Origin: a virus | IMG/VR virus record: IMGVR_UViG_3300025632_000079 | Location: 1-23,871 of that record | DNA: 23,871 nucleotides | Reading direction: 5' to 3' (one strand) | Shown: positions 4,338 through 18,506 of the stretch, one piece after another | Position numbering within the stretch: the first letter of the stretch is position 1 | Layout: each line of letters starts with the position of its first letter | The notes under the pieces: generated by a model | Told to the model about the DNA's origin: nothing | Database searches by the model: none | What the model saw: only the letters and a program-made list of their open reading frames with translations | Made by a program: the position numbers and the translations under genes

Positions 4338-4523
4338 ATGGATACCACACGTTGGAAAAGCGTACTTGTACCGCGGGAAGTGTACGAAGAAATTAAACAC
4401 CTGTCTAAAGCAGAGGGCAGAACCATCGGCGGACAACTCCGACTGGTCTTCGACTGGTATAAAGAAGCGCGGACCGCGGGCCACGTACCAATTGAAGAAA
4501 ATAAAGAAGATATATGCGATTAA
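4338..4523 (+). CDS. Ribbon-helix-helix transcriptional regulator
   Basis: 61 residues. The strand-helix-helix pattern RWKSVLVPREVYEEIKHLSKAEG followed by TIGGQLRLVFDWY is typical of MetJ/Arc proteins, in which the N-terminal strand pairs in a dimer and enters the DNA major groove. I chose the ATG at 4338 because GGAG lies nine bases upstream; the ATG at 4311 has no ribosome site and lies almost on the -10. It stands alone between its own promoter and a terminator, divergent from the ATP-grasp gene, which suggests autoregulation and control of that gene. A toxin-antitoxin role is less likely because no toxin-like partner is adjacent. Confidence 0.75.
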   Translation: MDTTRWKSVLVPREVYEEIKHLSKAEGRTIGGQLRLVFDWYKEARTAGHVPIEENKEDICD

Positions 4524-4592
4524 CTATTGCTTATCCCATACATTGATGTAAAGTAAGTTTTGCAGCAGCATGTTGCACTCCGTAGTAAAAAC

Positions 4593-4632
4593 GCCCCCAG
4601 ACTGCTTGCCCGCGGCTGGGGGCAATTTTTTT
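4593..4632 (+). terminator. Rho-independent terminator after RHH gene
   Basis: Stem GCCCCCAG (4593-4600) pairs with CTGGGGGC (4616-4623), with a 15-base loop and then AA plus seven T. The ribosome site of the next gene begins right after it. Confidence 0.9.
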
Positions 4633-4649
4633 AAAAAAAGGAGAAACGA

Positions 4650-4856
4650 ATGCCAGATTTCGTTGATGGCCTACGCGCCAAAAAACCAAATGATAAAGCA
4701 CCAGACTTCGTTAAGTGCAATCTTAGCATAAAACGCGAAGACCTGTTGGCGTGGTTGTCCACAAGAAACGACGAATGGATCAACGTCCAAGTCAAAGAAA
4801 GCGGTAAAACCGGCACATGGTACGCAGAAGTGGATACGTGGGAGCCCCGCAAATGA
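4650..4856 (+). CDS. Conserved-looking hypothetical small protein
   Basis: 68 residues starting MPDFVDGLRAKKP, with a strong AAAGGAG site at 4637-4643. A middle helix (KREDLLAWLS) is followed by alternating strands ending in WYAEVDTWEPRK. This pattern (short N-terminal tail, K-E-DL-W, then Y-A-D-W near the end) is familiar from small phage proteins of unknown function. No catalytic motif or membrane segment is visible. It is the first gene of the A-rich early block and overlaps the next by ATGA. Confidence 0.7.
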   Translation: MPDFVDGLRAKKPNDKAPDFVKCNLSIKREDLLAWLSTRNDEWINVQVKESGKTGTWYAEVDTWEPRK

Positions 4857-5170
4857 AGTTGACGCCGGATTCCGAAAAATACCAAACCCTCTACTTCGAG
4901 GCTTGGACCAAACAAAATAAAATTGACGGCCGAAAAAACCCGGACATGCTTAAAAAAGACACAAAAAAAGCATGGGACAACGGTAAAGTAAACGGAGCGT
5001 TAGGAGGCCGTAAAAAAATCACCTTGGACAAATGGCCCGAAAAAGCTAAAATCATAAACAATATGAAACTTAAAGGCATGTCCAATAATAAAATAACGGA
5101 ACTTACAGGCATAAACTTGTCATCCGTTAAAGATTTCGTCAAAAGATACGACCTGCCAAAGGAAGTCTGA
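4853..5170 (+). CDS. HTH domain protein
   Basis: 105 residues from the ATG at 4853 (ATGA overlap with the previous gene, GGAG eight bases upstream); the more upstream start at 4817 would overlap more and lacks support. The N-terminal half is Lys-rich. The C-terminal part (EKAKIINNMKLKGMSNNKITELTG, then INLSSVKDFVKRYDLP) has the three-helix pattern of resolvase/Hin-type helix-turn-helix domains, so sequence-specific DNA binding is likely. No recombinase catalytic domain is present. It is probably an early regulator co-transcribed with its neighbours. Confidence 0.65.
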   Translation: MKLTPDSEKYQTLYFEAWTKQNKIDGRKNPDMLKKDTKKAWDNGKVNGALGGRKKITLDKWPEKAKIINNMKLKGMSNNKITELTGINLSSVKDFVKRYDLPKEV

Positions 5171-5171
5171 A

Positions 5172-5459
5172 GTGAAAGCAACGCGACTCAGTGAAGCCGA
5201 AGAAGAAGCAAGAAACGACTTCTTTATGGCAATGGATTGCGCGCAAGACTTGATCCAAGAAATGGTAGAAAGTGACATAAACATGGGCGCAGCACTCGGA
5301 GGCATACTAACGCAAACCCTCACCGCGCTCATGTCCGTCGCTCCAAATAACGAAACCGCAATGAAAGTCCTATCGTCTTGTATCCATAATGCGTCCTTTA
5401 CGTCCCTAGAAACCTCCGAACACGAACAAACGCACCAAGGGTCAGACGAAATACACTGA
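5172..5459 (+). CDS. Hypothetical helical protein, GTG start
   Basis: 95 residues starting at GTG 5172, two bases after the previous stop, with AAAGGA eight bases before it. It is predicted mainly helical: a charged helix (SEAEEEARNDFFMAMD), a longer hydrophobic-amphipathic stretch (MGAALGGILTQTLTALMSVAP, not long enough to be a convincing membrane helix) and a His/Gln/Glu-rich tail. Function not recognised. A promoter follows directly after its stop, so this is probably the end of the transcript started at 4.6 kb or read into the next gene. Confidence 0.6.
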   Translation: MKATRLSEAEEEARNDFFMAMDCAQDLIQEMVESDINMGAALGGILTQTLTALMSVAPNNETAMKVLSSCIHNASFTSLETSEHEQTHQGSDEIH

Positions 5460-5462
5460 CAC

Positions 5463-5492
5463 TTGACAGTATCGCATAACATCCCATATAGT
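5463..5492 (+). promoter_or_regulatory. Sigma70-type promoter with ATCGCATA operator motif
   Basis: Perfect -35 TTGACA (5463-5468), 18-base spacer and TATAGT (5487-5492). The recurrent 8-mer ATCGCATA sits in the spacer (5471-5478), where a bound protein would block RNA polymerase. The ribosome site TATGGAG follows at 5507-5513. Confidence 0.75.
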
Positions 5493-5519
5493 TAAACGGC
5501 ATAAACTATGGAGATGAAA

Positions 5520-5915
5520 ATGCAAAAACTACTGTCTATCGAAGAAGTAATGAAAATCACAGGTAAAGCTAAACCTACAATATACCGGCGTACCGCAGAA
5601 GGCACGTTCCCAACACCCGTCGAAGTGCCGTCAACCGCGCTCCGCGGGCCAAAAACAAAAAAAATGTGGGACGAAAAAGACATAATGGCGTGGAAAAGAG
5701 AAATGAAGTTCGTGCCGAAAAAAGAAAATATCGTCCTCGACAACGGTGAAAACATCGGAAGACAAGAACAAAACCACGAACAGGTTAACCCCTTTTCAAA
5801 CAACCCGTGGACGAACCTGCTAGACGAACCAAAATGGTACGTTAAACATAAATTCCTAGTCTGGGCCGCCATCGGAGGCCTGCTCGCAGGTATAATAGGA
5901 AGCGTTTGGGGTTAA
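5520..5915 (+). CDS. AlpA-like DNA-binding protein with C-terminal membrane helix
   Basis: 131 residues from ATG 5520 (GGAG six bases upstream; the ATG at 5508 is part of that site). The N-terminal ~60 residues (LLSIEEVMKITGKAKPTIYRR, then GTFPTPVEVPS and KMWDEKDIMAWKRE) follow the MerR/AlpA-type winged-helix excisionase/activator pattern. The C-terminus has a hydrophobic segment at about 112-130 (FLVWAAIGGLLAGIIGSVW) preceded by Lys/His, so it may be anchored in the inner membrane with the DNA-binding domain in the cytoplasm. A polar linker joins the parts. AlpA proteins are normally soluble, ~70 residues. It has its own promoter carrying ATCGCATA, shared with later cassettes. Confidence 0.75.
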   Translation: MQKLLSIEEVMKITGKAKPTIYRRTAEGTFPTPVEVPSTALRGPKTKKMWDEKDIMAWKREMKFVPKKENIVLDNGENIGRQEQNHEQVNPFSNNPWTNLLDEPKWYVKHKFLVWAAIGGLLAGIIGSVWG

Positions 5916-5933
5916 ATAAACAAAATAACCCAA

Positions 5934-5962
5934 TTGTGACGACGGTATCGCCATCGTCACAA
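5934..5962 (+). other. Long intergenic hairpin without T-tract
   Basis: Twelve-base arms, 5934-5945 and 5951-5962, pair with one C/A mismatch around loop TATCG. No T-run follows, so this is more likely an RNA stability or processing hairpin, or an inverted-repeat binding site, than a terminator. Confidence 0.65.
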
Positions 5963-5988
5963 TCTATAAAACAAAAAAAGGAGTGAAA

Positions 5989-6069
5989 ATGACCAAAGAA
6001 AAACTGGAAATGGAAAAAATGCTCAACGAAGTGTTCCAAAAAGTGTTCGGAACAAAATGGGGAGCTTAA
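5989..6069 (+). CDS. Putative 26-residue microprotein
   Basis: Very short frame with an excellent ribosome site (AAAAAAAGGAGTG) correctly spaced before ATG 5989. Product begins MTKEKLEMEKMLNEVF and ends FGTKWGA: one amphipathic helix. Whether it is translated is not certain, but the ribosome site has no other gene to serve. It lies between a hairpin and the CSD-like gene. Function unknown. Confidence 0.45.
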   Translation: MTKEKLEMEKMLNEVFQKVFGTKWGA

Positions 6070-6086
6070 AGCATAAAGGATAAAAC

Positions 6087-6608
6087 ATGCTAAATGGACT
6101 GCTGGAAAAAAAACAAGGCGTCATCATAAACATATTAAATGATAAAAAATGTGCTTTCGCTCAAATCGAAAACGATGAACAAGTCTTCATCGAACCAAAA
6201 TTTACCACAGGACTAAAACTGCAAATCGCAGACCAAGTGGAAATGGTGGTAATTTCTAACACGCGATTCACAACACAGTGGAAAGCAATAAAAGTAGAAC
6301 TAATAAACCAACACGGGGAAACAACAACACAACCCGAAACAAAACCCGTGCTGACACTGCAACAAGAAATCATGCTGTTCCTAACAGAAGAACCAGACAT
6401 GTGCTTCACAACAAAACAAATAAAAGAAGGCCTCGGTCTAAGCATTGGACAAGAAGACGTGCGAAGAGAAGCAGAAAAGTTGCACAACGCAAATAAAATA
6501 TGTCGCGCTAAAGTATGCGGACCAAACTACAAAAAACAAACGACTTTCAACCTATACTCCAAAAATATCGAAGCGTTCATCTTCGATGTCGAATACGAAA
6601 CCCAATAA
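6087..6608 (+). CDS. Cold-shock-like OB domain plus winged-helix protein
   Basis: 173 residues, start ATG 6087 with AAAGGA upstream. Residues ~8-70 (QGVIINILNDKKCAFAQIENDEQVFIEPKF...) follow the strand pattern of a cold-shock OB fold (G-x-I-x-x, G/A-F-A-x-I, VFI), which binds single-stranded nucleic acid. After a Thr/Glu-rich linker, residues ~92-165 look like a winged helix (QQEIMLFLTEEPDMCFTTKQIKEGL, then VRREAEKLHNANKICRAKV). The combination suggests a DNA/RNA-binding regulator. It is the last gene before a terminator and is strongly A-rich in third positions, like its neighbours and unlike the head genes. Confidence 0.6.
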   Translation: MLNGLLEKKQGVIINILNDKKCAFAQIENDEQVFIEPKFTTGLKLQIADQVEMVVISNTRFTTQWKAIKVELINQHGETTTQPETKPVLTLQQEIMLFLTEEPDMCFTTKQIKEGLGLSIGQEDVRREAEKLHNANKICRAKVCGPNYKKQTTFNLYSKNIEAFIFDVEYETQ

Positions 6609-6630
6609 AATAAGGCGCTTAACGTAATCT

Positions 6631-6664
6631 AAAGCCCGCGGCACACGGCTCGCGGGCTTTTCTG
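6631..6664 (+). terminator. Rho-independent terminator, end of early block
   Basis: Perfect 10-bp stem AAAGCCCGCG (6631-6640) / CGCGGGCTTT (6651-6660) with 10-base loop, followed by TCT. The A-run on the left arm would let it also act on the other strand. Confidence 0.85.
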
Positions 6665-6996
6665 TGTAAACCGAGGCCCACGGCTCGCGGTGCGGTTACA
6701 AATAAACGCGTTCCCTTATATATAGAGCCAGAAATAAAAATAAATATTTTTTGTAAAAATAGGCGTAACCGGTGTAACCGTGTAACTTTAGGTGTTTTCT
6801 CCTGTGTATATAAGGAGTTAGAAGTAACACAAAGTAGTTTTTAAAAATGTAACGTAACCAGAGTTTGTGTAACCTTAGAGGCCCAAAGTGCGTTAAGGGG
6901 GTCTGAAAGTTTTTTTATTTTTTTTTATTTCTGTAGCTATATATACAAGAGAGCGTTTTTAGTATTAAACTATCTGCAAATAACTAGGATACTCAT
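6665..6996. other. AT-rich non-coding region with iteron-like GTAAC repeats
   Basis: No credible gene in 330 bases. GTAAC occurs at least six times in one orientation (6765, 6774, 6782, 6823, 6849/6854, 6869) and once inverted as GGTTAC at 6694; three copies from 6763 are nearly tandem. An inverted CTCCT/AGGAG pair lies at 6799-6817. Long T/A stretches follow (6908-6960). Iterons beside an AT-rich stretch are typical of a replication origin or a regulatory region. The DNA just before terS could also carry its promoter. Function inferred. Confidence 0.5.
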
Positions 6997-7626
6997 ATGG
7001 CCTCGAAAGCTAAATCAAGCCCCCCTGCTAAGATCAAAAGCCGCGGGCGACCTAAATCAACGAAATCAGCGGTCCTGACTAGGCGGCAAGAGCTTTTTGT
7101 AAAAGAGCTTGTCTCAAAAGACGGCCAGATCACTATGCGAGAAGCTGCCATTAATGCTGGATACCCCGCAGGATCAGCGCACACCCGAGCATATGAGATG
7201 ACCAATCCCAATATCTGTCCCCATGTGGTGGCAGCTATACAATCGTATCGCGCCGAGCTTGATGAAAAGTTTGGCGTGAATTACCAGCGGCATCTGCGCG
7301 ACCTTCAAACCATCCGCGATGCAGCATTAACCAACGGAGCCTATTCGGCAGCCGTTCAAGCAGAATATCGGCGGGGGCAAGCGCAAGGCGATATTTATGT
7401 GAGCAAATCAGAAATCCGTCATGGCAGTATCGATTCGATGAGCAAGGACGAAGTGCTGAACGCTCTGAAGGAGATTAAACAAAGTTATGCCCCGATCACT
7501 ATCGACGTTACTCCCGAAGGAGAGAGCAATCCCCAGAACCGCGACAAAGCGCGAGGCCGACTTTTGGAGGCTGATGAAGACTGGGATGCAGAAGAGCCCG
7601 AGAACATGGAAAAATACCCGAATTGA
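6997..7626 (+). CDS. terS: Terminase small subunit
   Basis: 209 residues, start ATG 6997 with AGGAT six bases upstream. After a basic tail, residues ~27-85 (LTRRQELFVKELVSKDG, TMREAAINAGYPAGSAHTRAYEM, VVAAIQSYRAELD) match the Terminase_2 DNA-binding helix-turn-helix family, which recognises the packaging site and delivers DNA to the large subunit. The middle is helical (oligomerisation), and the C-terminus is acidic (ADEDWDAEEPENME), as expected for contact with the large subunit. Unusually, terL lies 4.4 kb downstream. The last 140 bases may be translated in a second frame as the next gene. Confidence 0.85.
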   Translation: MASKAKSSPPAKIKSRGRPKSTKSAVLTRRQELFVKELVSKDGQITMREAAINAGYPAGSAHTRAYEMTNPNICPHVVAAIQSYRAELDEKFGVNYQRHLRDLQTIRDAALTNGAYSAAVQAEYRRGQAQGDIYVSKSEIRHGSIDSMSKDEVLNALKEIKQSYAPITIDVTPEGESNPQNRDKARGRLLEADEDWDAEEPENMEKYPN

Positions 7627-7948
7627 AACGTGGGCCATGCCGGGTATCCCGGATGTCTTATGTTGTGATGAAAACGGTAAGTTTCATTTTGTAGAATTAA
7701 AGGCGACCTCTGGGAACGCAGTGGACCTGCGACCTCATCAAGTCGCTTGGCTTACAACGCACAGTCATGCCAGCGTTTGGGTTTTAGTCCGTAAGCTGCA
7801 AACCAAAACAAAGCCTCAAATGATTTATTTGTACCATGGTAAAGACGCAATGGATTTAAAGATGGAAGGCCTGAAGGTTGCACCGGTCTATTCGTCCGAC
7901 GGGGATTTTGACTGGGATAAAATAATGGGCTTGATTTCTCCCATATGA
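7487..7948 (+). CDS. PD-(D/E)XK (VRR-NUC-like) nuclease
   Basis: The conserved core lies after residue ~20: E23-ADFWRLMK helix, TRIETWAMPGIPDVL (catalytic D), KFHFVELKAT (E-x-K), then RPHQVAWL with the typical Gln, and VWVLVRK. This is the VRR-NUC/Holliday-resolvase-like fold, cutting branched or structured DNA; next to terminase genes such nucleases may trim DNA before packaging. The start is uncertain: ATG 7487 lacks a good ribosome site, ATG 7574 would cut the first helix, and a strong AAGGAG (7517-7522) stands six bases before an in-frame ATC at 7529. In any case the gene overlaps terS in another frame. Confidence 0.75.
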   Translation: MPRSLSTLLPKERAIPRTATKREADFWRLMKTGMQKSPRTWKNTRIETWAMPGIPDVLCCDENGKFHFVELKATSGNAVDLRPHQVAWLTTHSHASVWVLVRKLQTKTKPQMIYLYHGKDAMDLKMEGLKVAPVYSSDGDFDWDKIMGLISPI

Positions 7949-7982
7949 TCGCATAATATCTTAGACCTAACTAACTACGGAG
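7931..7982 (+). promoter_or_regulatory. Cassette promoter with ATCGCATA and TACGGAG
   Basis: TTGATT (7931-7936), 17-base spacer, TAATAT (7954-7959). ATCGCATA lies at 7948-7955, overlapping the -10. Ribosome site ACGGAG at 7977-7982 serves the gene at 7989. Confidence 0.6.
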
Positions 7983-7988
7983 ATTATT

Positions 7989-8201
7989 ATGAAACATGAT
8001 GAAAGACACGGCGGTCCATATGATCGAGGACGGGCGGACTATTGGTATAACCGACCGGTTGACCCTCATTACTTTACGGGTGGCACGAGAAGTAGAGACT
8101 GCGCGACCTGCGTGACAGATTTAAAACCGTCTGAATTAAAGGCTTATCATGCGGGTTATTGTGATGGGGAAGCCGACGGCGGCCAAAAGGATTGGGGTTA
8201 A
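7989..8201 (+). CDS. Small phage protein of the DRGxADxYY type
   Basis: 70 residues. The pattern GPYDRGRADYWYNRPVDPHYF followed by LKPSELKAYHAGYCDGEADG is familiar from small conserved phage proteins, in which an Arg/Tyr/His-rich first half precedes an E-x-x-AY-x-GY helix. The role is unknown; two cysteines (CATC) could bind metal. It has its own promoter and ribosome site and is followed at once by a 39-codon frame and a terminator, forming the first accessory cassette between terS and terL. Confidence 0.75.
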   Translation: MKHDERHGGPYDRGRADYWYNRPVDPHYFTGGTRSRDCATCVTDLKPSELKAYHAGYCDGEADGGQKDWG

Positions 8202-8321
8202 ATGTTTTTATTTAATTGGCTTGGCAAATTATTATACGGTAAAGAGGCGTGGGAAAAGCAGGATCGTGAAAAGGCGCGGCGGCGGCCGATAAAACAAAAG
8301 CCTAAAAGACGTAAAAAATAA
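8202..8321 (+). CDS. Putative 39-residue basic protein
   Basis: ATG one base after the previous stop. The product has a hydrophobic N-terminus (MFLFNWLGKLLYGK) and a very basic tail (KARRRPIKQKPKRRKK), resembling a small membrane- or nucleic-acid-associated peptide. No clean ribosome site except AAGG 15 bases upstream, so it would depend on coupling. It ends nine bases before a terminator, which supports its being the second gene of the cassette. Confidence 0.5.
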   Translation: MFLFNWLGKLLYGKEAWEKQDREKARRRPIKQKPKRRKK

Positions 8322-8329
8322 TAAAATTA

Positions 8330-8354
8330 AACCCGGTTGACGCCGGGTTTTTTA
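8330..8354 (+). terminator. Rho-independent terminator
   Basis: AACCCGG (8330-8336) / CCGGGTT (8343-8349), loop TTGACG, then a T-run to 8352. Confidence 0.9.
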
Positions 8355-8375
8355 TTGCGCTATAGTATGGGATAA

Positions 8376-8395
8376 GTCGCATACATTACGGAGGG
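8376..8395 (+). promoter_or_regulatory. ATCGCATA-like motif and ACGGAG site
   Basis: GTCGCATA (8376-8383, one mismatch to the recurrent 8-mer) is followed by ACGGAGGG (8388-8395) before ATG 8402. Upstream, CTATAGTATGGGATAAG resembles the other cassette leaders and could hold a -10 TATAGT. Confidence 0.5.
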
Positions 8396-8401
8396 CAAAC
8401 C

Positions 8402-9112
8402 ATGTTAAAGACTGTTGAACTAAGCCGCGCCAAAAAAACAAAGGGCATTGCGGTAACATATAGAGCGGGCACCGGGGAAAAATACGGGACCTGCCCGACC
8501 ACGTGCAAAATGAATTGCAGCGGGAAAGGCACCGAAAAGATCGACGCAGATTACCTTGACGCGTTGCTGGATGCAAAACCGGCCAAAGGCGTTTCATTTA
8601 CTTACTCGCATTTCGATCCGCATGTTTTTAATTGGGGCCGCAAATTGCGGGCAGATAAAACCGTTATTAATTACAGCACCGAAAACTTAGGCGCGGCAGC
8701 CGCGTCAATTCATAACGGCGTCCCGTCCGTCGCGGTGGTAAGTGAGCAATCATGGCAGGGAAAGAAAACGCAACCGGCCCCGCATGGTATTAACGTCGTG
8801 CGGTGTCCTGCGGAAATCCGGGACATTTCCTGCGCGGATTGTGGAAACGGTGATCCACTTTGCGCCCGATTAGATCGCAATTTTATTATTGGATTTACTG
8901 CGCATGGCCCCAGCAAAAGAAAAGCCGCGGATTTAAACGTAAAAGGCGGATGTTATGCGGACGCCGGTAATTGCCGAATATGGTGGGATGATACGGCGAA
9001 CGGTGCGCAGCCGGATGAAACCGACGGGGAAAAGCTTTTGCGGTTTGTTAAAGGCCTGCCGCCGCGGTCTATTGTGCGGCACCATGTGGCGGGTGATATC
9101 GGGGCAGAATAA
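8402..9112 (+). CDS. gp88/DUF7227-like Cys-rich phage protein
   Basis: 236 residues, start ATG 8402 with GGAGGG upstream. Nine cysteines: C31-x3-C35-x3-C39 near the N-terminus, C135, C144-x2-C147-x6-C154, and C184-x6-C191. Recognisable gp88 (DUF7227) blocks are GVSFTYSHF, CPAEIRDISCADC followed by CARLDRNFIIGFTAHG, GGCYADAGNC and RHHVAGDIG. From memory, the usual family order places GCYA and RH-x-AGD before the YTH/CPA/FPAHG half; here they come last. The cysteines suggest bound zinc or an iron-sulfur cluster; no activity is known for the family. It forms its own cassette between a terminator at 8330 and one at 9163. Confidence 0.7.
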   Translation: MLKTVELSRAKKTKGIAVTYRAGTGEKYGTCPTTCKMNCSGKGTEKIDADYLDALLDAKPAKGVSFTYSHFDPHVFNWGRKLRADKTVINYSTENLGAAAASIHNGVPSVAVVSEQSWQGKKTQPAPHGINVVRCPAEIRDISCADCGNGDPLCARLDRNFIIGFTAHGPSKRKAADLNVKGGCYADAGNCRIWWDDTANGAQPDETDGEKLLRFVKGLPPRSIVRHHVAGDIGAE

Positions 9113-9129
9113 CTTTCTAAAAAATAAAG

Positions 9130-9162
9130 CTTGCAACCATATGCAAGTTTATGCGAGATTAT
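9130..9162 (+). promoter_or_regulatory. CTTGCA inverted repeat and inverted CTCGCATA
   Basis: Perfect inverted repeat CTTGCA (9130-9135) / TGCAAG (9142-9147). CTTGCA is also the core of the tandem TCTTGCAT at the RHH gene. TATGCGAG (9150-9157) is the cassette 8-mer in reverse with one mismatch. It may be an operator; a terminator follows immediately, so a promoter here would give only a short RNA. Confidence 0.45.
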
Positions 9163-9194
9163 AGGAGCGGGCCGGGCAATGGCTCGCTCCTTTT
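9163..9194 (+). terminator. Rho-independent terminator
   Basis: AGGAGCG (9163-9169) / CGCTCCT (9185-9191), inner GCC/GGC pairing, then TTTT. Confidence 0.85.
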
Positions 9195-9216
9195 AACTTT
9201 TACGGAGATTAATAAC

Positions 9217-10407
9217 ATGACTTATACAACTAACGCCTTCGCGCACGGTATCGGAAACAGTGCAGTTTCATCACAATGGTTTAGCCGCCCGGACGATCAA
9301 AAGTTTTTGACGCTTGACGATATGCTGGCGCACAAAAAGATTGATTCGCAGCGCATGACAAGCCGCACCGTTGACACGCACAAGGTCAAAATCATCGGAG
9401 ACTTTGACGAAGAAAACCCCAGCCGGGGAAATATCTTTGTTGAATATACGGATGACAATCGCCGCGAGCATAATAACACCCCCACCAATTGGAGTTTTGG
9501 CCAGCTATCACAATTAGCAGGCGCACCCGCTGGATATCTGCGCGACTTGCCCGCACCTATTGCGGCGGACTGTATCCAATGGGGTTTGAAGTATAACCGG
9601 GGAAAGGAGTTGATTAAAGTTTACGGACATCAGGCGCAGGGCGGGGAATTGCGAGCCGCAACCGGTCCGGACTATGGCCGGATTTTTGATTGGGAAATAT
9701 TAGAGCCCATCAAAAACTTGATTGATGAAAGTGGCGGGCGCTGGAAAGTGCCCGGGATGATGACCGGCAGCCGCAACGGCATGGCCGTTTATGATCCGGA
9801 GGTCCCTGTTACTATGGACACGACCACCCTTTTCGCGTCGGATCGGGACGTTTTCGTTTTCCTTGTGGATGACCGCAACCCCATCGAAGTGGGCAAGCTT
9901 CCAAACGGTGAACCTGATTTGATGTTTCGCGGGTTTTATGCGTGGAACAGTGAAACCGGCAGCAAAACCGCCGGGATCGCTGCAATGTATTTGCGCGGCG
10001 TTTGTATGAATCGAAACTTGTGGGGCGTTGAAAACTTCCATGAAATTAAAATCCGCCATACAAAATTCGCGCCGGATCGGTTTGCAATGGAGGCCCGCCC
10101 CGCGTTGCAATCCTTTGCGAACGGTTCAACGCATTCTTTTGTTGAAGGGGTGCAAGCCGCCAAAGATGCCCGCATTGCTAAAACAGATGAGGACCGTCTA
10201 GACTTTTTGACAAAGCGCGCCGGTTTATCTGGACGCATGGCGCGGGCAGCAAACGCCCGCCACTTGACCGAAGAGGGCCGCCCAGTGGAGACCGTTTGGG
10301 ATGCTGCGCAGGCAATAACCGCAATTGCCCGCGACGTTCCCCATCAAGATGCGAGAATTGAAGTTGAACGGAAGGCGGGCGCGTTGCTGGACAAAGTGAC
10401 CGCATAA
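9217..10407 (+). CDS. DUF932 domain protein
   Basis: 396 residues from ATG 9217, preceded by TACGGAG; the longer frame from 9151 runs through the terminator and is rejected. The arrangement of a short N-terminal region, LSQLAGAPAGYLRDLP (about 100), LRAATGPDYGRIFDWEIL (about 153-170), a central beta-rich part and MYLRGVCMNRNLWG (about 270) matches DUF932, the phage/plasmid-like family often found in phages and plasmids. Biochemical activity is unknown to me. It is a monocistronic cassette; the ribosome-site module is the same as in the neighbouring cassettes, and a terminator follows 24 bases after the stop. Confidence 0.85.
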   Translation: MTYTTNAFAHGIGNSAVSSQWFSRPDDQKFLTLDDMLAHKKIDSQRMTSRTVDTHKVKIIGDFDEENPSRGNIFVEYTDDNRREHNNTPTNWSFGQLSQLAGAPAGYLRDLPAPIAADCIQWGLKYNRGKELIKVYGHQAQGGELRAATGPDYGRIFDWEILEPIKNLIDESGGRWKVPGMMTGSRNGMAVYDPEVPVTMDTTTLFASDRDVFVFLVDDRNPIEVGKLPNGEPDLMFRGFYAWNSETGSKTAGIAAMYLRGVCMNRNLWGVENFHEIKIRHTKFAPDRFAMEARPALQSFANGSTHSFVEGVQAAKDARIAKTDEDRLDFLTKRAGLSGRMARAANARHLTEEGRPVETVWDAAQAITAIARDVPHQDARIEVERKAGALLDKVTA

Positions 10408-10431
10408 GCCGCCGCTATATAATAAGACCCG

Positions 10432-10457: not shown

Positions 10458-10465
10458 GTGGGGGG

Positions 10466-10494
10466 TTTACTTTTAAATAAATTAATCGCATATT
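10466..10494 (+). promoter_or_regulatory. Cassette promoter with ATCGCATA
   Basis: TTTACT (10466-10471), 17-base spacer, CATATT (10489-10494); ATCGCATA at 10485-10492. The leader continues GCGGCGGGCAAGCCGCG and CTATGGAG, a layout repeated at 11034-11104. Confidence 0.6.
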
Positions 10495-10546
10495 ATCCCA
10501 CATGCGGCGGGCAAGCCGCGTTAACCTAACCTATGGAGTGAAAAAA

Positions 10547-10975
10547 ATGACAAATGTTTTCGAATTAAATTTCCGGGCGTCCGACATTCTTTTGGATCGC
10601 GTTTTAAATCCGGCCAAAGATCAAGACACCGGGCGCAACCGTCCCGAGGATTTAGTTGAAGCTTGCGGGATCATCCCCGACTTTTTCCTTGAGGCCTGCC
10701 ACTTTGCAAAAGATAGCGAGACCGGTTTGACGCTGGAAAACGTTTGCGCCGGTATGGATAACGCTTATCAGATGGGCGGGTTTGGGTCTTATCCTTGGAA
10801 GGGGACACTAGACCACAATGGGACATATCAGGCGGATAACGACGAAGACGCACCACTTGCACCGCTGGCCCGGTTTGGTTTTGAAGGGCGCGTTTTCTGT
10901 TATGTTTATGACTACGGCGTCGCGGCGGTCCGCATCGGATTAGATGGACCTTATAAAATCGCCCGGTTTGATTAA
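10547..10975 (+). CDS. Hypothetical cassette protein
   Basis: 142 residues from ATG 10547 (TATGGAG upstream; the frame from 10502 begins inside the leader repeat and is rejected). Sequence not recognised. It has a helical N-terminal half (NFRASDILLDRVL, LVEACGIIPDFFLEACHFAKD), a Gly/Asn/Asp-rich middle (MGGFGSYPWKGTLDHNGTY) and a beta-rich end (FCYVYDYGVAAVRIGLDGPYKIARFD), so a compact cytoplasmic protein is likely. It is monocistronic between its own promoter and terminator and next to DUF932, with which it may work; this is suggested by position only. Confidence 0.65.
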   Translation: MTNVFELNFRASDILLDRVLNPAKDQDTGRNRPEDLVEACGIIPDFFLEACHFAKDSETGLTLENVCAGMDNAYQMGGFGSYPWKGTLDHNGTYQADNDEDAPLAPLARFGFEGRVFCYVYDYGVAAVRIGLDGPYKIARFD

Positions 10976-11033: not shown

Positions 11034-11069
11034 TTTACTTTCTATTAAATTAACGCATATTATCGCATA
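11034..11069 (+). promoter_or_regulatory. Cassette promoter with two ATCGCATA-type motifs
   Basis: TTTACT (11034-11039), 16-base spacer, CATATT (11056-11061). AACGCATA at 11052-11059 and exact ATCGCATA at 11062-11069. Followed by the GCGGCGGGCAAGCCGCG leader and CTATGGAG. Confidence 0.6.
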
Positions 11070-11112: not shown

Positions 11113-11517
11113 ATGATTGAACTAAAAACAAACCCCGACCACCTACACGCAATCGCAAGTAATGTTCGCCTGACCGATCAGACCGACCTTGCGCACGATC
11201 TCGACGCCGCAGCGCATGACATGAAAAACTTGCGCGACTACGGCGAACGGCTGGAACGTAGCACCCAGCAAATGAGCGGTGAAATTCAAAGCATACGCAC
11301 CCAGCGCGACGAAGCCGCCGCCGCCTTGCTGGCCATCTTTAAACCCGAGCTTGAGAAGATGATTGACGCCGCCGTTAATGATTGCCGCGCTATTTCCGAC
11401 ATCGAGGACCGGCTGGACAACTTAGAAGACCCCGGCAACCTAACGGACACGGTTCGCAGTGAGGTCAAGGACATGATACGCGACGGTGACATCACAATCA
11501 GCATCGCTCACGTGTAA
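11113..11517 (+). CDS. Hypothetical coiled-coil cassette protein
   Basis: 134 residues, start ATG 11113 with TATGGAG upstream. The central part (about 25-75) is a long charged helix with heptad character (DLDAAAHDMKNLRDYGERLE, then QQMSGEIQSIRTQRDEAAAA), followed by an acidic second helix set (IEDRLDNLEDPGNLTDTV). It is probably an elongated dimer or trimer. No family recognised. It is the last cassette before the GC-rich element and terL, with a promoter nearly duplicated from the previous cassette. Confidence 0.65.
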   Translation: MIELKTNPDHLHAIASNVRLTDQTDLAHDLDAAAHDMKNLRDYGERLERSTQQMSGEIQSIRTQRDEAAAALLAIFKPELEKMIDAAVNDCRAISDIEDRLDNLEDPGNLTDTVRSEVKDMIRDGDITISIAHV

Positions 11518-11935: not shown

Positions 11936-11958
11936 TTCTCACAAATATTCATTAGTTA

Positions 11959-11987
11959 TTTCCAACGAGCCCTAACTGTCCTATAAT
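11959..11987 (+). promoter_or_regulatory. Candidate late promoter before terL
   Basis: TTTCCA (11959-11964), 17-base spacer and a perfect TATAAT (11982-11987). ATCGCATA follows at 11998-12005, about where the transcript would start. Confidence 0.6.
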
Positions 11988-12005
11988 AGCCCGTAATATC
12001 GCATA

Positions 12006-12021
12006 TGTTTCACGTGAAACA
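12006..12021. promoter_or_regulatory. parS: Perfect chromosomal-type parS site
   Basis: TGTTTCACGTGAAACA is a perfect 16-bp palindrome identical to the bacterial chromosomal parS consensus bound by ParB. It lies in the presumed terL leader, directly after the ATCGCATA motif and 41 bases before the terL start. No parA or parB is in the window, so host ParB is the likely reader. Sequence identity is certain; function is inferred. Confidence 0.8.
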
Positions 12022-12062
12022 TTGGCCGTGAACCGCGTACCATAAATTAAGTAGGGTCCCCC

Positions 12063-13526
12063 ATGAACGTTGCTCAAAATTCGTTGTTAGAGGATAAAAA
12101 ATTAAAATTAGAGTTACGTTTGGCTCAGATCATGAAGAATGAGGAGTGCCAAAATAATTTTTTAGTTTTTGTAAAAACTGTTTGGCCTGATTTTATTGCG
12201 GGCCGTCATCATAAGATTATTGCTGAGAAGTTGGAAAGGGTTGCAAATGGCGACTTAAAGCGACTTATCATCAACATGGCTCCGCGGCACACGAAGAGTG
12301 AGTTTGCGAGTTATTTATTTCCGGCATGGATGATGGGCCGTAATCCGAAGATGAAGATCATTCAGGCGACGCACACGACGGAGTTAGCGGTTAACTTTGG
12401 TCGTAAGACGAAGAACTTGATTGAGAGTGACGATTACAAGGATGTGTTCCCGGGCGTGAAGCTGGCTGCTGACAGTAAGGCGAGTGGTCGTTGGGACACG
12501 AGTTCTGGCGGGATGTATTATGCTGTTGGTGTTGGTTCGAACTTAGCTGGTCGTGGTGGTGATTTAATTATCATTGACGACCCTCATTCTGAGCAGACGG
12601 CGATGAGCAACACTGGTTTTGAGGACGCTTGGGATTGGTACACGGGTGGACCGAGGCAGCGTTTACAGCCGGGTGGGAGCATAGTTTTGGTTCAGACGCG
12701 GTGGTCTGAGAAGGACATGACGGGTCAGTTGATGCGGGCTCAAGCGAAGGACGGTTCTGCGGATCAGTGGGAAGTCGTTGAATTACCTGCTATTTTTGAG
12801 GACGGGACTTCTTGTTGGCCTGAGTATTGGAGTTTGGAGGATTTGACTGCGGTTAAGGCTTCTATTCCTCCGAGCAAGTGGAATGCGCAATATCAGCAAA
12901 ATCCTACGGGTGAGGAGAATGCGATTATCAAGCGCGAGTGGTGGCGTGTTTGGGATCAGGATAAGGTTCCTCAGTTGGAATATGTTATTCAGAGTTACGA
13001 CACGGCTTTTAGTAAGCGGGAGACTGCTGACTTTAGTGCGATTACGACGTGGGGGGTATTTTATCCGAATGAGGGTGGTTCTGGGCCTAATTTAATTTTG
13101 TTGGATGTTAAGAAAGGGCGTTGGGATTTTCCTGAGTTAAAGCAGGAGGCTTTAGAAAATTATAAATTTTGGGAGCCTGACACGGTTATTGTTGAGGCGA
13201 AGGCTTCTGGGACCCCTTTGACGCAGGAGTTACGTGCTATGGGGATTCCTGTTGTGAATTTCACTCCAAGTCGTGGTAATGACAAGATTACTCGGGCGCA
13301 TAGTATAGCGCCATTATTTGAGGCTGGGATGGTTTGGGCTCCTGACGAGATGTGGGCGGAGGAGTTAATTGAGGAGGTTGCGGCGTTCCCGAATGGGGAG
13401 CATGACGACTTGGTAGATAGTATGACGCAGGCACTTATGCGCTATAGACAAGGTAATTTTGTACAATTACCAACAGATGACTGGGAAGATGAAGAAAACT
13501 CTGCTAAAGTGCGATTGTATTATTAG
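12063..13526 (+). CDS. terL: Terminase large subunit
   Basis: 487 residues, start ATG 12063 with AGGG seven bases upstream. ATPase domain: Walker A-like MAPRHTKSE (72-80, a phage variant of PRHGKS), Walker B LIIIDD (168-173) and coupling motif QTRW (211-214). Nuclease domain (RNase H-like): D313 (SYDTAF), E378 (VIVEAKASG) and D448/D449 (GEHDDLVDS). It packages DNA into the prohead and cuts the concatemer. Third codon positions are rich in T and G, unlike the A-rich early block. It opens the head operon behind its own promoter, the parS site and a recurrent operator motif. Confidence 0.95.
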   Translation: MNVAQNSLLEDKKLKLELRLAQIMKNEECQNNFLVFVKTVWPDFIAGRHHKIIAEKLERVANGDLKRLIINMAPRHTKSEFASYLFPAWMMGRNPKMKIIQATHTTELAVNFGRKTKNLIESDDYKDVFPGVKLAADSKASGRWDTSSGGMYYAVGVGSNLAGRGGDLIIIDDPHSEQTAMSNTGFEDAWDWYTGGPRQRLQPGGSIVLVQTRWSEKDMTGQLMRAQAKDGSADQWEVVELPAIFEDGTSCWPEYWSLEDLTAVKASIPPSKWNAQYQQNPTGEENAIIKREWWRVWDQDKVPQLEYVIQSYDTAFSKRETADFSAITTWGVFYPNEGGSGPNLILLDVKKGRWDFPELKQEALENYKFWEPDTVIVEAKASGTPLTQELRAMGIPVVNFTPSRGNDKITRAHSIAPLFEAGMVWAPDEMWAEELIEEVAAFPNGEHDDLVDSMTQALMRYRQGNFVQLPTDDWEDEENSAKVRLYY

Positions 13527-13541
13527 ATGAAGGGCGTCTGA

Positions 13542-14459
13542 ATGTATGGTACTGCGGTAAATCTTGGGGCTGGCGGCTTTGACGACGTGATGTATTTCGA
13601 GGCGGGCGGCAGTCCTATGTACTTGGAAGAAACGTTGACGGGCACGGCACCGGGGTCACAAAGCCCGCGGCCTGAGTTTGCTGATCTCAGGGGCCCCGTG
13701 GGCGACGATGCGCCTGTTATGTCTGAAGAAGAGCTTGCGGAGTTTGAGGACCAAAAAGGTTTAGGGTCCCTTATCATGGACCGGATACGTGGAAAGAACG
13801 TCACGAAAGATTTACGTGAGTCTGGCCGTGTTGGCGGCACCTCCCCTGAGTTTATGGAGACATTAATTGACGAGTACGGCTATCCGAGTGTCTTTGACGA
13901 GGAGACGGGCGAGAAGATAATACCTACCGATTTGGACCTTTATTCTGAAGAAGTCCGTCATGCGCGGCCCGAGGGCCGTCGTGATTTACCGACGTATCCT
14001 GAGTTAGAGGATGCTCGGGGTCATTTGTTAGGTTCGGCTGTTATGGCGTCGGAGTATGGTCCTGAGACTGCGGAGAGTGCTGGAAACTTTAGTGAGTTTA
14101 TGGATCGTTTTGCGCCGATTATTATGGGTGGTGGTCAGAACAAGCGTGACGTTGCTATGGACCAGCGCAACAACGCGATTGGTCGTCAGATATTTATGAA
14201 GGCTGGAATAGACGCGACTGTTGAGGAGCTAACCCAGCAGGTTGACGCTGAGATATTTAAGCAGTTAGATAAGATAATGGGACGTTCGCAGGAGGATCGT
14301 ATGACGCCATCGGCGGATCAGCCTCGCGCCCCACGGAACTTTAAATCACCGTCTGAGGGTCCGGATGTTTTTTTCCCTCGCAACGAGGAAGGTTATTTTG
14401 ACACGACTAGAGGCGTTATGGGGATATCTCCTCGTAAGTACCGTAATTACGGCGTTTAG
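13542..14459 (+). CDS. Hypothetical protein between terL and portal
   Basis: 305 residues, start ATG 13542 with AGGG seven bases before. Gly/Asp/Glu-rich, acidic N-terminal 150 residues of low complexity. The segment at about 150-187 (YPELEDARGHLLGSAVMASEYGP, then ETAESAGNFSEFMD) recalls the DAxRH...G...A...HE helices of DUF6973-type domains, though the final His-Glu is absent. The C-terminus has a Phe-Phe-Pro and GYFDTTRGVMG stretch. Its place between terminase and portal suggests a virion or assembly protein. Family membership is weak. Confidence 0.6.
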   Translation: MYGTAVNLGAGGFDDVMYFEAGGSPMYLEETLTGTAPGSQSPRPEFADLRGPVGDDAPVMSEEELAEFEDQKGLGSLIMDRIRGKNVTKDLRESGRVGGTSPEFMETLIDEYGYPSVFDEETGEKIIPTDLDLYSEEVRHARPEGRRDLPTYPELEDARGHLLGSAVMASEYGPETAESAGNFSEFMDRFAPIIMGGGQNKRDVAMDQRNNAIGRQIFMKAGIDATVEELTQQVDAEIFKQLDKIMGRSQEDRMTPSADQPRAPRNFKSPSEGPDVFFPRNEEGYFDTTRGVMGISPRKYRNYGV

Positions 14460-14481
14460 GTTGGTCAAATAGGAGGATTAC

Positions 14482-16938
14482 ATGGCTGAAGAAATAAATG
14501 GTTACTCGGGTAGTTTAATGGACAACAATGTCCCTGCGCAGCTTGACGAGGATGACTTAAAGGCTGAGATGGAGATTGAGCTTCCTGATTCACAGAACGA
14601 CGTTATGGCTATGATTAGTGCCGAGGACGTTGGCGAGATAGAAATCAGTGAGACTGACGACGGCGGTGTTGAGGTTGATTTCGATCCCCAAGACCAGCGC
14701 GGCGAGGACATGGATTTTTATGCCAACTTGGCTGAAGAGATGCCGGATCGTGAATTGCAGCGCATTGCGGGTGATTTATTGAGCGAGTATGACGCGAACA
14801 AGGCCAGTCGTCAGGACTGGGAGGATGCGTATTCGAGTGGTTTGGAGCTTTTGGGCTTTAACTACGAGGAGCGGACGCAGCCGTTTCGTGGGTCCTCGGG
14901 TGTTACGCATCCGTTGCTTGCGGAGGCTGCCACACAGTTTCAGGCGCAGGCTTTTAATGAGCTTTTGCCGTCTAGCGGGCCTGTTCGTACTGTTGTTATG
15001 GGCCAAGAGACGCGGGCCAAGGCTGCTCAATCGCAGCGTGTCCGTCAGTTTATGAATTATTATATTACGAATGTCATGGAGGATTACACTCCGGACATGG
15101 ACCAGATGCTGTTTTATTTACCGCTTGCTGGTTCGACGTTTAAGAAGACGTATTACGATGAGGCTCTGGGCCGTGCGGTCAGTAAGTTTGTTCCTGCGGA
15201 GAATTTAGTTGTTCCGTATGAAACTTCTGATCTTGAGACGTGTCCTAATATTACTCAGGTTGTTCGGATGTCTTTGAATGATTTGCGTAAGCGTCAGCTT
15301 GCGGGGATTTATTTGGATGATGTTGACGTTATTCCCGCGCAGCGGGAGGTTACGGGCGTTGAGGGCGAGATAGATCGCATTGACGGCATTCAGCCGGGTA
15401 CGGTTGATTACGACTGTACGATTCTTGAGTGTCACGTTGATTTGGACCTTGAGGGTTATGAGGAGCTTGACGAGGACGGCGAGCCTACGGGCATTCGGGT
15501 CCCTTATATTGTTACGCTTTCCATGGACAACGGGCAGGTTTTGTCTGTTCGTCGGAATTGGACCGAGGACGATGAGCGGAAAAAGAAGATACAATTTTTT
15601 ACGCATTTTAAGTTTTTGCCGGGGTTTGGTTTTTACGGCCTTGGTTTGATACATACGATTGGGGGTCTGTCACGGACCGCCACTTCGGCACTGCGGCAGT
15701 TAATTGACGCGGGTACGTTGTCCAACCTCCCTGCGGGTTTCAAGGCCCGTGGACTACGGATCAGAGACGATGATGAACCGTTGCAGCCCGGTGAGTTCCG
15801 CGATGTGGATGCTCCGGGTGGGGCTATCCGCGATAGTCTTATGCCGTTGCCCTTTAAGGGTCCGGATCAGACGTTGTTCCAGTTGTTGGGCTTTGTTGTT
15901 CAGGCTGGTCAGCGGTTTGCGACGATTACAGACTTGAAGGTTGGAGATGGCAACGAGAACGCGGCTGTCGGCACAACGATGGCTATGATGGAGCAGGGCT
16001 CTCGTGTTATGAGTGCGGTACACAAGCGTTTGCACTACGCGATGCGCCAAGAGTTTAAGATTTTGGCTCGTGTTATGTCGGAGAGTTTGCCGCAGGAGTA
16101 CCCGTATTCGGTTCCGGGCGGTGATGAGACGATCATGCGCGAGGATTTTGATGGTCGGGTAGATGTTATACCGGTCAGCAATCCGAATGTGTTCAGTCAA
16201 TCGCAGCGCATTATGTTGGCGCAGACCAAGTTGCAGTTGGCGTCTCAGGCTCCTGAGATACACAACATGCACGAAGTGTTTAGCGACATGTATGACGCTT
16301 TGGGTGTTACGGACACGGATCGTTTGTTGAAGTCAGTCCCGGCGGATACGGATGAGCCTGTTGATCCGGCGCAAGAGAACATCAATGCGTTGGACATGTT
16401 GCCGTTGAAGGCGTTTGAGGGTCAAAACCATCAGGCGCACATTACGGCTCACTTGTTGTTTGGCACTTCTCCGATTGTGGGCGGTATGCCTCCGGTAGCG
16501 ATTGCCGTTCAGAAGCACGTTATGGAGCATGTACAGATCGCGGCCCGCGAGCAAGCGGCGGTTGCGTATTTGCAGCAAGTTCAGCAACAGGGTGGTCAGC
16601 CTGCGGACGAGGAGCAAATGCTTCAGGTCGAGCAAATGACGGCTCAGTTTATTGCGGAAGGCTTACAGCAGCTTAAAGACTTGTCTGGTCAGCTATCGGG
16701 TGCTGGCGCTCCTGATCCATTGGTTCAGCTTAAAGAGCAAGAGTTGCAACAGAAGGCGGCGGCAGATCAAGCGGATACGCAGATCGATCAAGCCAAGCTG
16801 GAGTTGGATGCGCAGAACCAGCAGATGCGCGGACAGCAATTCCAGCAGCGGTTGCAGTCTCAGGAAGAGCAGACGGCGGCTCGTATTCAATCGGCCATGG
16901 ACCGTGAGTTGCTTAAACAGCGAGGGCAAACACAATGA
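14482..16938 (+). CDS. Portal protein, large
   Basis: 818 residues, start ATG 14482 with AGGAGG. After an acidic N-terminal ~80 residues comes the conserved portal entry: SRQDWEDAYSSGLELLGFNYEERTQPFRG then SGVTHPLLAEAATQFQAQ and ELLPSSGPVRT (about 110-172), known from large portals of marine phages. Later come SVRRNWTEDDERKKK, FYGLGLIHTIGGLSRTATSALRQLIDAGTLSNLPAG (about 390-425), typical of the stem/crown region, and a Gln-rich coiled-coil C-terminus (about 690-818). The dodecameric portal is the DNA channel and docks terminase. Its length exceeds P22 portal (~725), explained by the acidic head and Gln-rich tail. The stop overlaps the next start. Confidence 0.85.
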   Translation: MAEEINGYSGSLMDNNVPAQLDEDDLKAEMEIELPDSQNDVMAMISAEDVGEIEISETDDGGVEVDFDPQDQRGEDMDFYANLAEEMPDRELQRIAGDLLSEYDANKASRQDWEDAYSSGLELLGFNYEERTQPFRGSSGVTHPLLAEAATQFQAQAFNELLPSSGPVRTVVMGQETRAKAAQSQRVRQFMNYYITNVMEDYTPDMDQMLFYLPLAGSTFKKTYYDEALGRAVSKFVPAENLVVPYETSDLETCPNITQVVRMSLNDLRKRQLAGIYLDDVDVIPAQREVTGVEGEIDRIDGIQPGTVDYDCTILECHVDLDLEGYEELDEDGEPTGIRVPYIVTLSMDNGQVLSVRRNWTEDDERKKKIQFFTHFKFLPGFGFYGLGLIHTIGGLSRTATSALRQLIDAGTLSNLPAGFKARGLRIRDDDEPLQPGEFRDVDAPGGAIRDSLMPLPFKGPDQTLFQLLGFVVQAGQRFATITDLKVGDGNENAAVGTTMAMMEQGSRVMSAVHKRLHYAMRQEFKILARVMSESLPQEYPYSVPGGDETIMREDFDGRVDVIPVSNPNVFSQSQRIMLAQTKLQLASQAPEIHNMHEVFSDMYDALGVTDTDRLLKSVPADTDEPVDPAQENINALDMLPLKAFEGQNHQAHITAHLLFGTSPIVGGMPPVAIAVQKHVMEHVQIAAREQAAVAYLQQVQQQGGQPADEEQMLQVEQMTAQFIAEGLQQLKDLSGQLSGAGAPDPLVQLKEQELQQKAAADQADTQIDQAKLELDAQNQQMRGQQFQQRLQSQEEQTAARIQSAMDRELLKQRGQTQ

Positions 16939-18194
16939 TGAGCAAGAGTTTAAATTACGCCTATCCGCAGCGGTTTGAGGACGGCGGCGAGGTCCAAGTT
17001 ACCGATCTCTCGGGCTTAAAACAGGAACCTCTGGGTAACGACATGGTGTTGGTTAAATTCCAAGACGGGAGTTACGGAAAGACGCAGAAAGCTTTATTTC
17101 AAGCGGCGGAAAGTCTTGGTGCGCCTATGGGCTCTCAGAAAGATTTTGCAAACTGGCACTTGAACGAGTGGGCTCCAAAGGTTGCAAGCGACCCTGCATT
17201 CATAGCCGCGCACGATAAATTCAACACCGATCAAATTTCCTACAATCAGGCCGTTATGGATTCCGATCCACAATATGCACAAAACAGGCTTGCTTTTGTT
17301 CAGACCCATGCGCCTAATAACGCGGCGGCGATTTCGGCGGCAGAAGAATTAGTGGCTACAGGGAATTATGCGTCGGCAACATCGCCTGCGGCCAAGGCTT
17401 CAGAACAGAAAAGCACTTCTTACGCTTTTGTGGATGCTGACGGCAATTCTTATAACATGGGAGACGCTCGTCCGGGTCACGACGGCACTAGCCTTGAGAG
17501 AGCAATAGCCAACGTACAAGAGTATTACAACCTTGCTCCGGGGTCGTTTACGGTCAGTGTTCCTTCAGAAGAACGGTTAGTGGGTACTTACGATTCGGAT
17601 TCGGGGTCTTTTCAAGCGGCAACTTCCGATATGCGTGACATCAACGGGTTTTCGGCCGTACCCGGCATGGCTACCACTATGGCCATGGGTGAAGAAGACG
17701 CGCCTTTTGCGGAGCCCACCATAGAAGAGATAGCAGACCGCTTGGGGTGGGTTGATTCTCCTACCACTATGGCCGTGGGTGAAGAAGACGGCGGAATGCC
17801 TGATACTCCCGGTGTGGACCTTATGCGTCCTGTGCCTGATGCGCCCGTTTTTTCCCTTCCTCCCGGTGTGGACCCTATGTTCCCTGCCCCGGTTACACCT
17901 TCACCGGTTAACCCCGTATTTACGCCTGCGCCGCCTCCTCCGGTGGTTAACCCTGTGTTTACACCCTCACCGGATAACACAGCATTTACGCCTCCGCCTC
18001 CTCCTCCGGTAGAAGGTCGGACATACGGCGCGTATAGCGGCACCCCGATGGGTCCTACTAATTCTATTCAGCCGTTCACCCCGTACATGGCCCCGCAACA
18101 AGCGCAGGGCCCGGACCTTCAATCCCTAATTACAGACACCGATTATTTTTTAAATAATTCGGCTCCCCGTACAAGCGTCTTTAAAAGGAGTTAA
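16935..18194 (+). CDS. Hypothetical virion protein with Pro-rich repeats
   Basis: 419 residues; ATG 16935 overlaps the portal stop, and a second ATG at 16938 is equally possible. The N-terminal ~230 residues are an ordinary globular mix. Residues ~245-290 contain the repeated unit TTMAxGEEDG, and residues ~295-360 have PPGVD and VNPVFTPxPPPP-type repeats, making a long flexible proline-rich arm. Such arms are seen in phage connector, fibre or scaffold-linked proteins, but I do not recognise the family. Its codon use and place between portal and the co-chaperonin suggest a structural role. The ribosome site of the next gene is inside its last codons. Confidence 0.6.
   Translation: MMSKSLNYAYPQRFEDGGEVQVTDLSGLKQEPLGNDMVLVKFQDGSYGKTQKALFQAAESLGAPMGSQKDFANWHLNEWAPKVASDPAFIAAHDKFNTDQISYNQAVMDSDPQYAQNRLAFVQTHAPNNAAAISAAEELVATGNYASATSPAAKASEQKSTSYAFVDADGNSYNMGDARPGHDGTSLERAIANVQEYYNLAPGSFTVSVPSEERLVGTYDSDSGSFQAATSDMRDINGFSAVPGMATTMAMGEEDAPFAEPTIEEIADRLGWVDSPTTMAVGEEDGGMPDTPGVDLMRPVPDAPVFSLPPGVDPMFPAPVTPSPVNPVFTPAPPPPVVNPVFTPSPDNTAFTPPPPPPVEGRTYGAYSGTPMGPTNSIQPFTPYMAPQQAQGPDLQSLITDTDYFLNNSAPRTSVFKRS
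17671..17790 (+). repeat. 30-bp direct repeat, 90-base period, in 16935-18194 gene
   Basis: The copies at 17671-17700 and 17761-17790 differ at one base and encode (A/P)TTMA(M/V)GEED. The spacing is 90 bases, so the frame is kept. Confidence 0.9.
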
Positions 18195-18197
18195 ATC

Positions 18198-18404
18198 ATG
18201 AAAGATCGTAAAATTAAAATAAACGGCTCTGCGCCGAGCAATCCGCCAAAAGCGGTTGGTTACGCGGACATTAAGGGTCAAGGCCGCATTCCTTACGGAA
18301 AAACAGCCCCAGCCCCGATGGCCACGGACAACGTGCGTAAGATGAAAACGCGTGGCACGGGAGCCGCGATCCGCGGCAAGAGTTACATGGGCTGCGGTTC
18401 TTAA
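18198..18404 (+). CDS. Small basic Gly-rich virion-type protein
   Basis: 68 residues, start ATG 18198 with AAAGGAG formed by the end of the previous gene. Lys/Gly-rich: KIKINGSAPSNPPKAVGYADIKGQGRIPYG, later MKTRGTGAAIRGKSYMGCG. Small proteins with the MKTRGTGAAxxG ending are common among marine phage head genes, where they sit between portal and capsid genes. The basic charge suggests contact with DNA or the portal. Probably disordered; function unknown. Confidence 0.7.
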   Translation: MKDRKIKINGSAPSNPPKAVGYADIKGQGRIPYGKTAPAPMATDNVRKMKTRGTGAAIRGKSYMGCGS

Positions 18405-18417
18405 CGTTGTTTTTTCC

Positions 18418-18506
18418 GTAAATCGCATAAATTTACAGATAGTCCTAGCTTATCTTATACAAGTTGTGCTAGGATTATATCTGATAATGTTAGATATTAT
18501 GCGAGG
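18418..18506 (+). promoter_or_regulatory. Intergenic control region with hairpins and ATCGCATA
   Basis: GTAAAT (18418-18423) / ATTTAC (18431-18436) encloses CGCATAA, and exact ATCGCATA sits at 18422-18429. A second hairpin has TCCTAGC (18443-18449) / GCTAGGA (18468-18474) with an 18-base loop. An inverted CTCGCATA-type copy is at 18498-18505, just before ATG 18512. Neither hairpin has a good T-run, so regulation is more likely than termination. Confidence 0.55.

Follow-up and report, generated by a model that had tools for sequence, protein, structure and literature searches.

Ribbon-helix-helix (RHH) repressors and phage regulators with multiple binding sites are both already known. The operator of Arc, a small RHH protein of the temperate phage P22, lies between the -35 and -10 elements of Pant and Arc is known for one operator region. 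The omega repressor of plasmid pSM19035 is a symmetric RHH dimer that reads asymmetric short units (i.e. 7-bp heptads) in either direction at several promoters. Cluster A mycobacteriophages carry stoperators, which are bound by a repressor of another kind, are spread over the phage genome and also terminate elongation (PMC9283540). The DNA studied here (i.e. the window, the whole analysed stretch of 23,871 nucleotides) is a 23.9-kb record of an uncultured tailed phage that encodes polA, terminase and portal proteins. The GenBank set contained no phage that was close to the window at the DNA level. The large terminase subunit exhibited 64% identity to that of Pelagibacter phage HTVC027P, and closer relatives are encoded by hundreds of IMG/VR contigs. 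A 324-aa ORF on the reverse strand (3510-4484) is located between polA and the RHH gene, opposite in direction to its neighbours; this ORF appears ATP-grasp-like by eye and was without a match in a Pfam search.

A preliminary description of this DNA had reported a repeated 8-mer, ATCGCATA. Seven exact copies were recovered at the same coordinates, namely 4513 on the reverse strand and 5471, 7948, 10485, 11062, 11998 and 18422 on the forward strand. The estimate of less than one chance copy was upheld, with 0.67 (sd 0.99) expected on both strands and none of 100 dinucleotide shuffles reaching seven. The reported one-mismatch copies at 8376, 11052, 9150 (reverse) and 18498 (reverse) are real, such copies are in excess (30 versus 17.7), and ATCCCATA at 4533 (+), 5481 (+) and 8366 (-) was grouped with them. 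The placing of all but one copy between genes needs adjustment: the copy at 4513-4520 shares bases with the final codons of the RHH ORF (stop codon 4521-4523) and the copy at 7948 touches the stop codon of ORF 7487-7948. The extra similarity described beside many copies (ATCCC or ATCTT) is present but is actually a second unit at +10 bp.

The unit has the relaxed consensus NTCSCRTA. The distance to a second unit is exactly 10 bp if both point the same way and 20 (sometimes 10) bp if they are opposed, with almost no partners at other distances. A logo around 134 non-redundant sites exhibited weaker copies of the word exactly 10 bp away on both sides. In the gap spectrum, which covered all distances for 215 sites, +/-10 was the only spacing with direct partners (37 and 33; background 0.17), and partners in inverted orientation were found at -20 (31) and -10 (6). 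Among loci of the R5 clade of RHH proteins (i.e. RWKS...PREVY), NTCSCRTA formed 21 distinct tandem pairs at an offset of 10 as compared to one at 21 other offsets (8 to 29), together with 18 divergent pairs at an offset of 20. No NTCSCRTA pairs were present in three RHH-less phages. A blind scan of tandem 6-mers singled out TCGCAT/CGCATA at an offset of 10. Logo, gap spectrum, consensus pairs and blind 6-mer count together indicate, at the level of DNA sequence, that ATCGCATA is one 8-bp unit of a strictly spaced operator with helical phasing.

Operators with this architecture were assigned to promoters along the window. O1 (4513-4540) is a divergent pair, TATGCGAT-N12-ATCCCATA, with an offset of 20 bp, which overlaps the RHH stop codon and lies on the promoter of gene 4650, where the pair flanks the -35 with units around and upstream of this element. 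O2 (5471-5488, +) is the tandem ATCGCATA-AC-ATCCCATA, positioned within the spacer and on the -10 of the alpA-like promoter (5463-5492, +; -35 TTGACA at 5463-5468, 18-bp spacer, -10 TATAGT at 5487-5492), a promoter read from the sequence and aligned in relatives. O3 (7938-7955, +; CTCCCATATG-ATCGCATA) falls on the promoter of gene 7989 (-35 TTGATT at 7931-7936, -10 TAATAT at 7954-7959). O4 (8366-8383; TATGGGAT-AA-GTCGCATA) is divergent with an offset of 10 and is located just past the -10 (TATAGT, 8361-8366) of the gene 8402 promoter, whose -35 (TTGACG, 8337-8342) is inside a terminator-like hairpin. O5 (9140-9157, -) consists of two reverse units, TATGCAAG at 9140-9147 and TATGCGAG at 9150-9157, upstream of the DUF932 gene (9217-10407). 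O6 (10485-10502, +; ATCGCATATT-ATCCCACA) and O7 (11052-11069, +; AACGCATATT-ATCGCATA) occupy the promoters of gene 10547-10975 (-35 TTTACT at 10466-10471, -10 TATTAT at 10491-10496) and gene 11113-11517 (-35 TTTACT at 11034-11039, -10 TATTAT at 11058-11063), respectively. O8 (11998-12005, +) is a single ATCGCATA unit 10 bp past the -10 (TATAAT, 11982-11987) of the promoter of terL (12063-13526, +; PHROG 38, E=6e-113). The isolated unit at 18422-18429 (+), before gene 18506, is shared by the closest relatives (G001, G002 and L007) alone and is a low-confidence operator.

The same promoter elements had been picked out in the preliminary description for the spacer at 5463-5492, the -10 at 7954 and the position after the -10 at 11982. 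The TA that ends the unit doubles as the TA of the -10 box at many promoters, with TTGACT, TTGATC or TTTACT located 17-18 bp before it. The most frequent position of hexamers resembling a -10 was +6 relative to the first base of the unit (41 of 215 sites; median, 1); with the aligned promoters, this places the operator over the core promoter as for Arc. This shared TA and the 17-18 bp spacer at several promoters would also be expected if the word were part of a phage-specific promoter (i.e. an extended -10 or a sigma/activator box) instead of an operator. Such a box has a fixed place and direction, however, whereas the pair flanks the -35 at g4650, is reversed at g8402 and DUF932 and lies past the -10 at terL, and second units occur exactly 10 bp off on either side. 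A promoter element was judged very unlikely and was discarded for this variation in position and direction; the variable placement (divergent at the -10 of g8402, around the -35 of g4650, past the -10 of terL) fits an operator.

Two further features of these promoter regions were observed. The -35 of the g8402 promoter (TTGACG/TTGACT) constitutes the loop of a hairpin resembling a terminator, e.g. CCCGCTTGACTGCGGGCTTTTTT, in the window (8331-8366) and at homologous places, so that an upstream terminator and a downstream promoter share DNA. The 5' leaders of accessory genes in R5-clade loci contain a longer ribosome-binding word, CTACGGAG/ACTACGGAG (TTGGAGAATG in the K5 clade), which is the most over-represented 8-mer in these loci besides the operator.

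The word had been described as phage-wide, which did not hold, as sites are confined mainly to the ~8-kb segment between polA and terL. Ten related phages, all tailed and uncultured, had 93 sites in 81 kb of polA-terL segments versus 18 in the other 320 kb, a 20-fold fall in density from 1.15 to 0.06 per kb; equal frequency elsewhere in the genomes, proposed at the outset as grounds for rejection, was thus not observed. Sites recurred upstream of the same genes even though the flanking DNA diverges, and mostly overlap or abut the -10 box. Conservation at homologous promoters, the other check proposed, was found in dozens of relatives: exact ATCSCATA was present at the terL promoter in 77 of 84 loci, and operators were detected at the promoters of g4650 (75/81), the alpA-like gene (58/81, within +/-180), g7989 (19/25), g8402 (35/56), g10502 (30/45) and g11113 (26/39), with an exact copy at DUF932 in 15 of 44. 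A few conserved copies also lie inside the portal and terL genes, as might be predicted if the excess of ATCGCATA were due to chance or a common coding word, but the shuffles, spacing and placement leave this explanation with a negligible probability, and it is refuted by the gap spectrum and the concentration between polA and terL.

A single regulator common to the AlpA-like gene, the accessory cassettes and the terL operon, as originally suggested, is well supported by this distribution. Of the four binders named at that stage, the evidence picks out the RHH protein, a candidate repressor of 61 aa (MDTTRWKSVLVPREVYEEIK...; 4338-4523, +) assigned from an AlphaFold model, PDB fold matches and Pfam. 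The model predicts strands at residues 3-6 and 9-12 and helices at 13-26 and 30-47, with a pLDDT of 77-88 over residues 1-40, giving the strand-helix-helix of about 45 residues that defines the RHH fold. Nearly all PDB fold matches were RHH proteins (including Arc, CopG, PutA, omega [1irq], CdbA and MatP), with each single match being weak (Foldseek E of 0.2 or worse, VIA Z of 5.5 or less). Pfam RHH_5 matched with E=0.001 and 19.2 bits, below the gathering cut-off of 26. When PDB sequences were compared, the RHH protein that matched best was Arc (E 0.17-0.5), which has a PREV..GR motif in common with the 61-aa protein.

The RHH gene adjoins the first operator (O1), and was present in every operator-bearing clade examined and in all operator-bearing genomes covering the region. 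The gene was not found, even at E<10, in the characterised but operator-less relatives HTVC027P, 023Pt_psg01 and DSL-LC04. An operator in either arrangement was located on or close to the 3' end of RHH in 67 of 78 R5-clade loci, and in 39 of 59 (K5), 15 of 15 and 3 of 3 loci of three other clades; the remaining 20 K5 loci were without an operator pair near RHH. Operator variants differed between clades, with a ratio of ATCGCATA to ATCCCATA of 259:138 for the R5 clade (15 for a reversed-word control) and about 7 to about 138 for the K5 clade (i.e. KWKS...PIEVY). RHH clade and operator variant covary in these counts, which come from many related contigs and represent essentially one or two evolutionary events. 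The L258 clade has a degenerate tandem, CTCCCATATT-ATCGCGTA, after RHH and an exact unit at a nuclease-gene promoter. A fresh test was made with RHH relatives of 56-62% identity from another collection: L299 contained CTCCCATATA-ATCGCATA directly 3' of the RHH gene, L300 had a tandem just before this gene plus a second tandem, and L301 had single units only, without a pair near RHH. For L302, with a distant RHH protein (37% identity), no operator was detected nearby. A phyletic profile searching for any other DNA-binding protein that tracks operator presence or absence returned only virion-type or uncertain ORFs; an overlap filter had left the RHH ORF out of this profile and RHH was tested apart.

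The evidence speaks against a second named binder, the AlpA-like regulator (5508-5915, +; PHROG 66, E=5.5e-9; Pfam Phage_AlpA, 22.5 bits against a cut-off of 21), whose gene is one of those controlled. As a winged-helix protein of the excisionase type it might bind the units head to tail and control its own and other promoters; AlpA/Xis/Cox-type proteins bind short direct repeats, and its own promoter carries the operator in the 58 loci counted above. Yet alpA did not accompany the operator: with one exception in about 80 loci, the K5, L258 and L273 clades lack the gene but keep operators and RHH. The operator persists in about 59 K5-clade loci with alpA in at most one, L258-clade loci combine RHH and operator with no alpA, and a 56-kb record (G011) also lacks the gene. 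Divergent pairs at 20 or 10 bp, moreover, are more readily explained by a symmetric dimer than by monomers arranged head to tail. Binding by the AlpA-like protein is therefore improbable and was rejected on its absence from whole clades with the operator, and the best candidate binder is most probably the 61-aa RHH protein. The AlpA-like protein and its relatives have a hydrophobic, membrane-helix-like C-terminal segment (WYVKHKFLVWAAIGGLLAGIIG), which is unusual for an excisionase-type regulator.

From the operator architecture, its conservation and promoter overlap, the link to the RHH gene and the predicted fold, we infer with good but incomplete confidence that ATCGCATA is the operator unit for the phage's own RHH protein (4338-4523), which would block at least eight sigma-70-type promoters. 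In this model each pseudo-palindromic unit (ATSSSAT core) would be occupied by a symmetric dimer, with neighbouring dimers one helical turn apart and on one face of the DNA as for other RHH proteins, and this would account for spacings of exactly 10 or 20 bp with free direction. At eight or more promoters of the polA-terL segment, bound dimers would cover the spacer, the -10 box or the start and, by analogy with Arc at Pant of P22, may sterically block the host RNA polymerase. The sigma-70-like promoters are in line with the reliance on host polymerase of HTVC027P (PMC12753301). In 157 loci, the 300 bp before RHH contained no exact unit, so that the protein would be coexpressed with the upstream genes, without autorepression in this lineage, L300 being a possible exception. 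RHH may then keep accessory genes, possibly early ones, at a low level or silence them, and may set the timing of terL, possibly by delaying it. Counting against the blocking model, terL has one unit only, past the apparent -10.

Some RHH proteins (i.e. ParG, omega, MatP and CdbA) organise DNA or bind centromere repeats, and MatP and CdbA are among the fold matches. An activating or genome-organising/partition role for RHH on its operator, to which the units around and upstream of the -35 of g4650 could also be ascribed, was nevertheless considered unlikely, as binding at most units, which overlap the core promoter, would keep RNA polymerase out, and no ParA or ParB family gene was detected in nine records. 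In these records, some of them incomplete, searches for integrase, ParB and ParA families (PF00589, PF02195 and PF13614) were negative, serine recombinases being outside the search; the integrase or ParA/ParB maintenance genes that would mark a temperate-phage immunity repressor were thus not detected.

The terL operator of the window is directly followed by an exact host-type parS, TGTTTCACGTGAAACA, at 12006-12021, as are those in terL leaders among L004-L083, G005, G008, G010 and G021. One or two parS-like sites were present in 65 of 80 terL loci, often with TGTTCCACGTGGAACA 23-24 bp away; in long records they are almost only at the terL leader. This arrangement (i.e. an RHH operator then one or two exact host-type parS, with no phage ParB) could form a two-input switch, in which a host ParB clamp on parS and an RHH repressor, spread ever more thinly during phage replication because each genome carries 8-13 operators, would jointly time the packaging genes, although we regard this proposal as doubtful.

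These observations would provide the first regulatory circuit, with a named regulator, operator and targets, for widespread uncultured marine phages that are terL-related to HTVC023P-type pelagiphages. A small repressor acting on many promoters, with no detectable lysogeny module, raises the question of how accessory and late genes are timed with host RNA polymerase alone, and the operator could be used as a marker for promoters of unknown accessory genes in metagenomes. The literature searched described neither an RHH regulon nor parS for this group of phages. What appears to be new is a putative RHH regulon that spans a whole segment with eight or more promoters, in phages in which integrase, ParA or ParB were not found. 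The candidate regulator resembles Arc in being a small phage RHH protein whose operator overlaps the core promoter, but differs in that it would act at eight or more promoters instead of one operator region, in having units 10 bp apart that are direct or divergent and, as compared to temperate P22, in the lack of a detected integrase. Omega similarly uses asymmetric short units in either direction at several promoters, but here the pitch is 10 bp and not 7 bp, there are usually one or two units and no partition ATPase was found. As for the stoperators of Cluster A mycobacteriophages (PMC9283540), one phage protein would act through many short asymmetric sites at separate genes, but the sites described here are neither genome-wide nor in one direction relative to transcription, being confined to the promoters of one segment and present in both directions.
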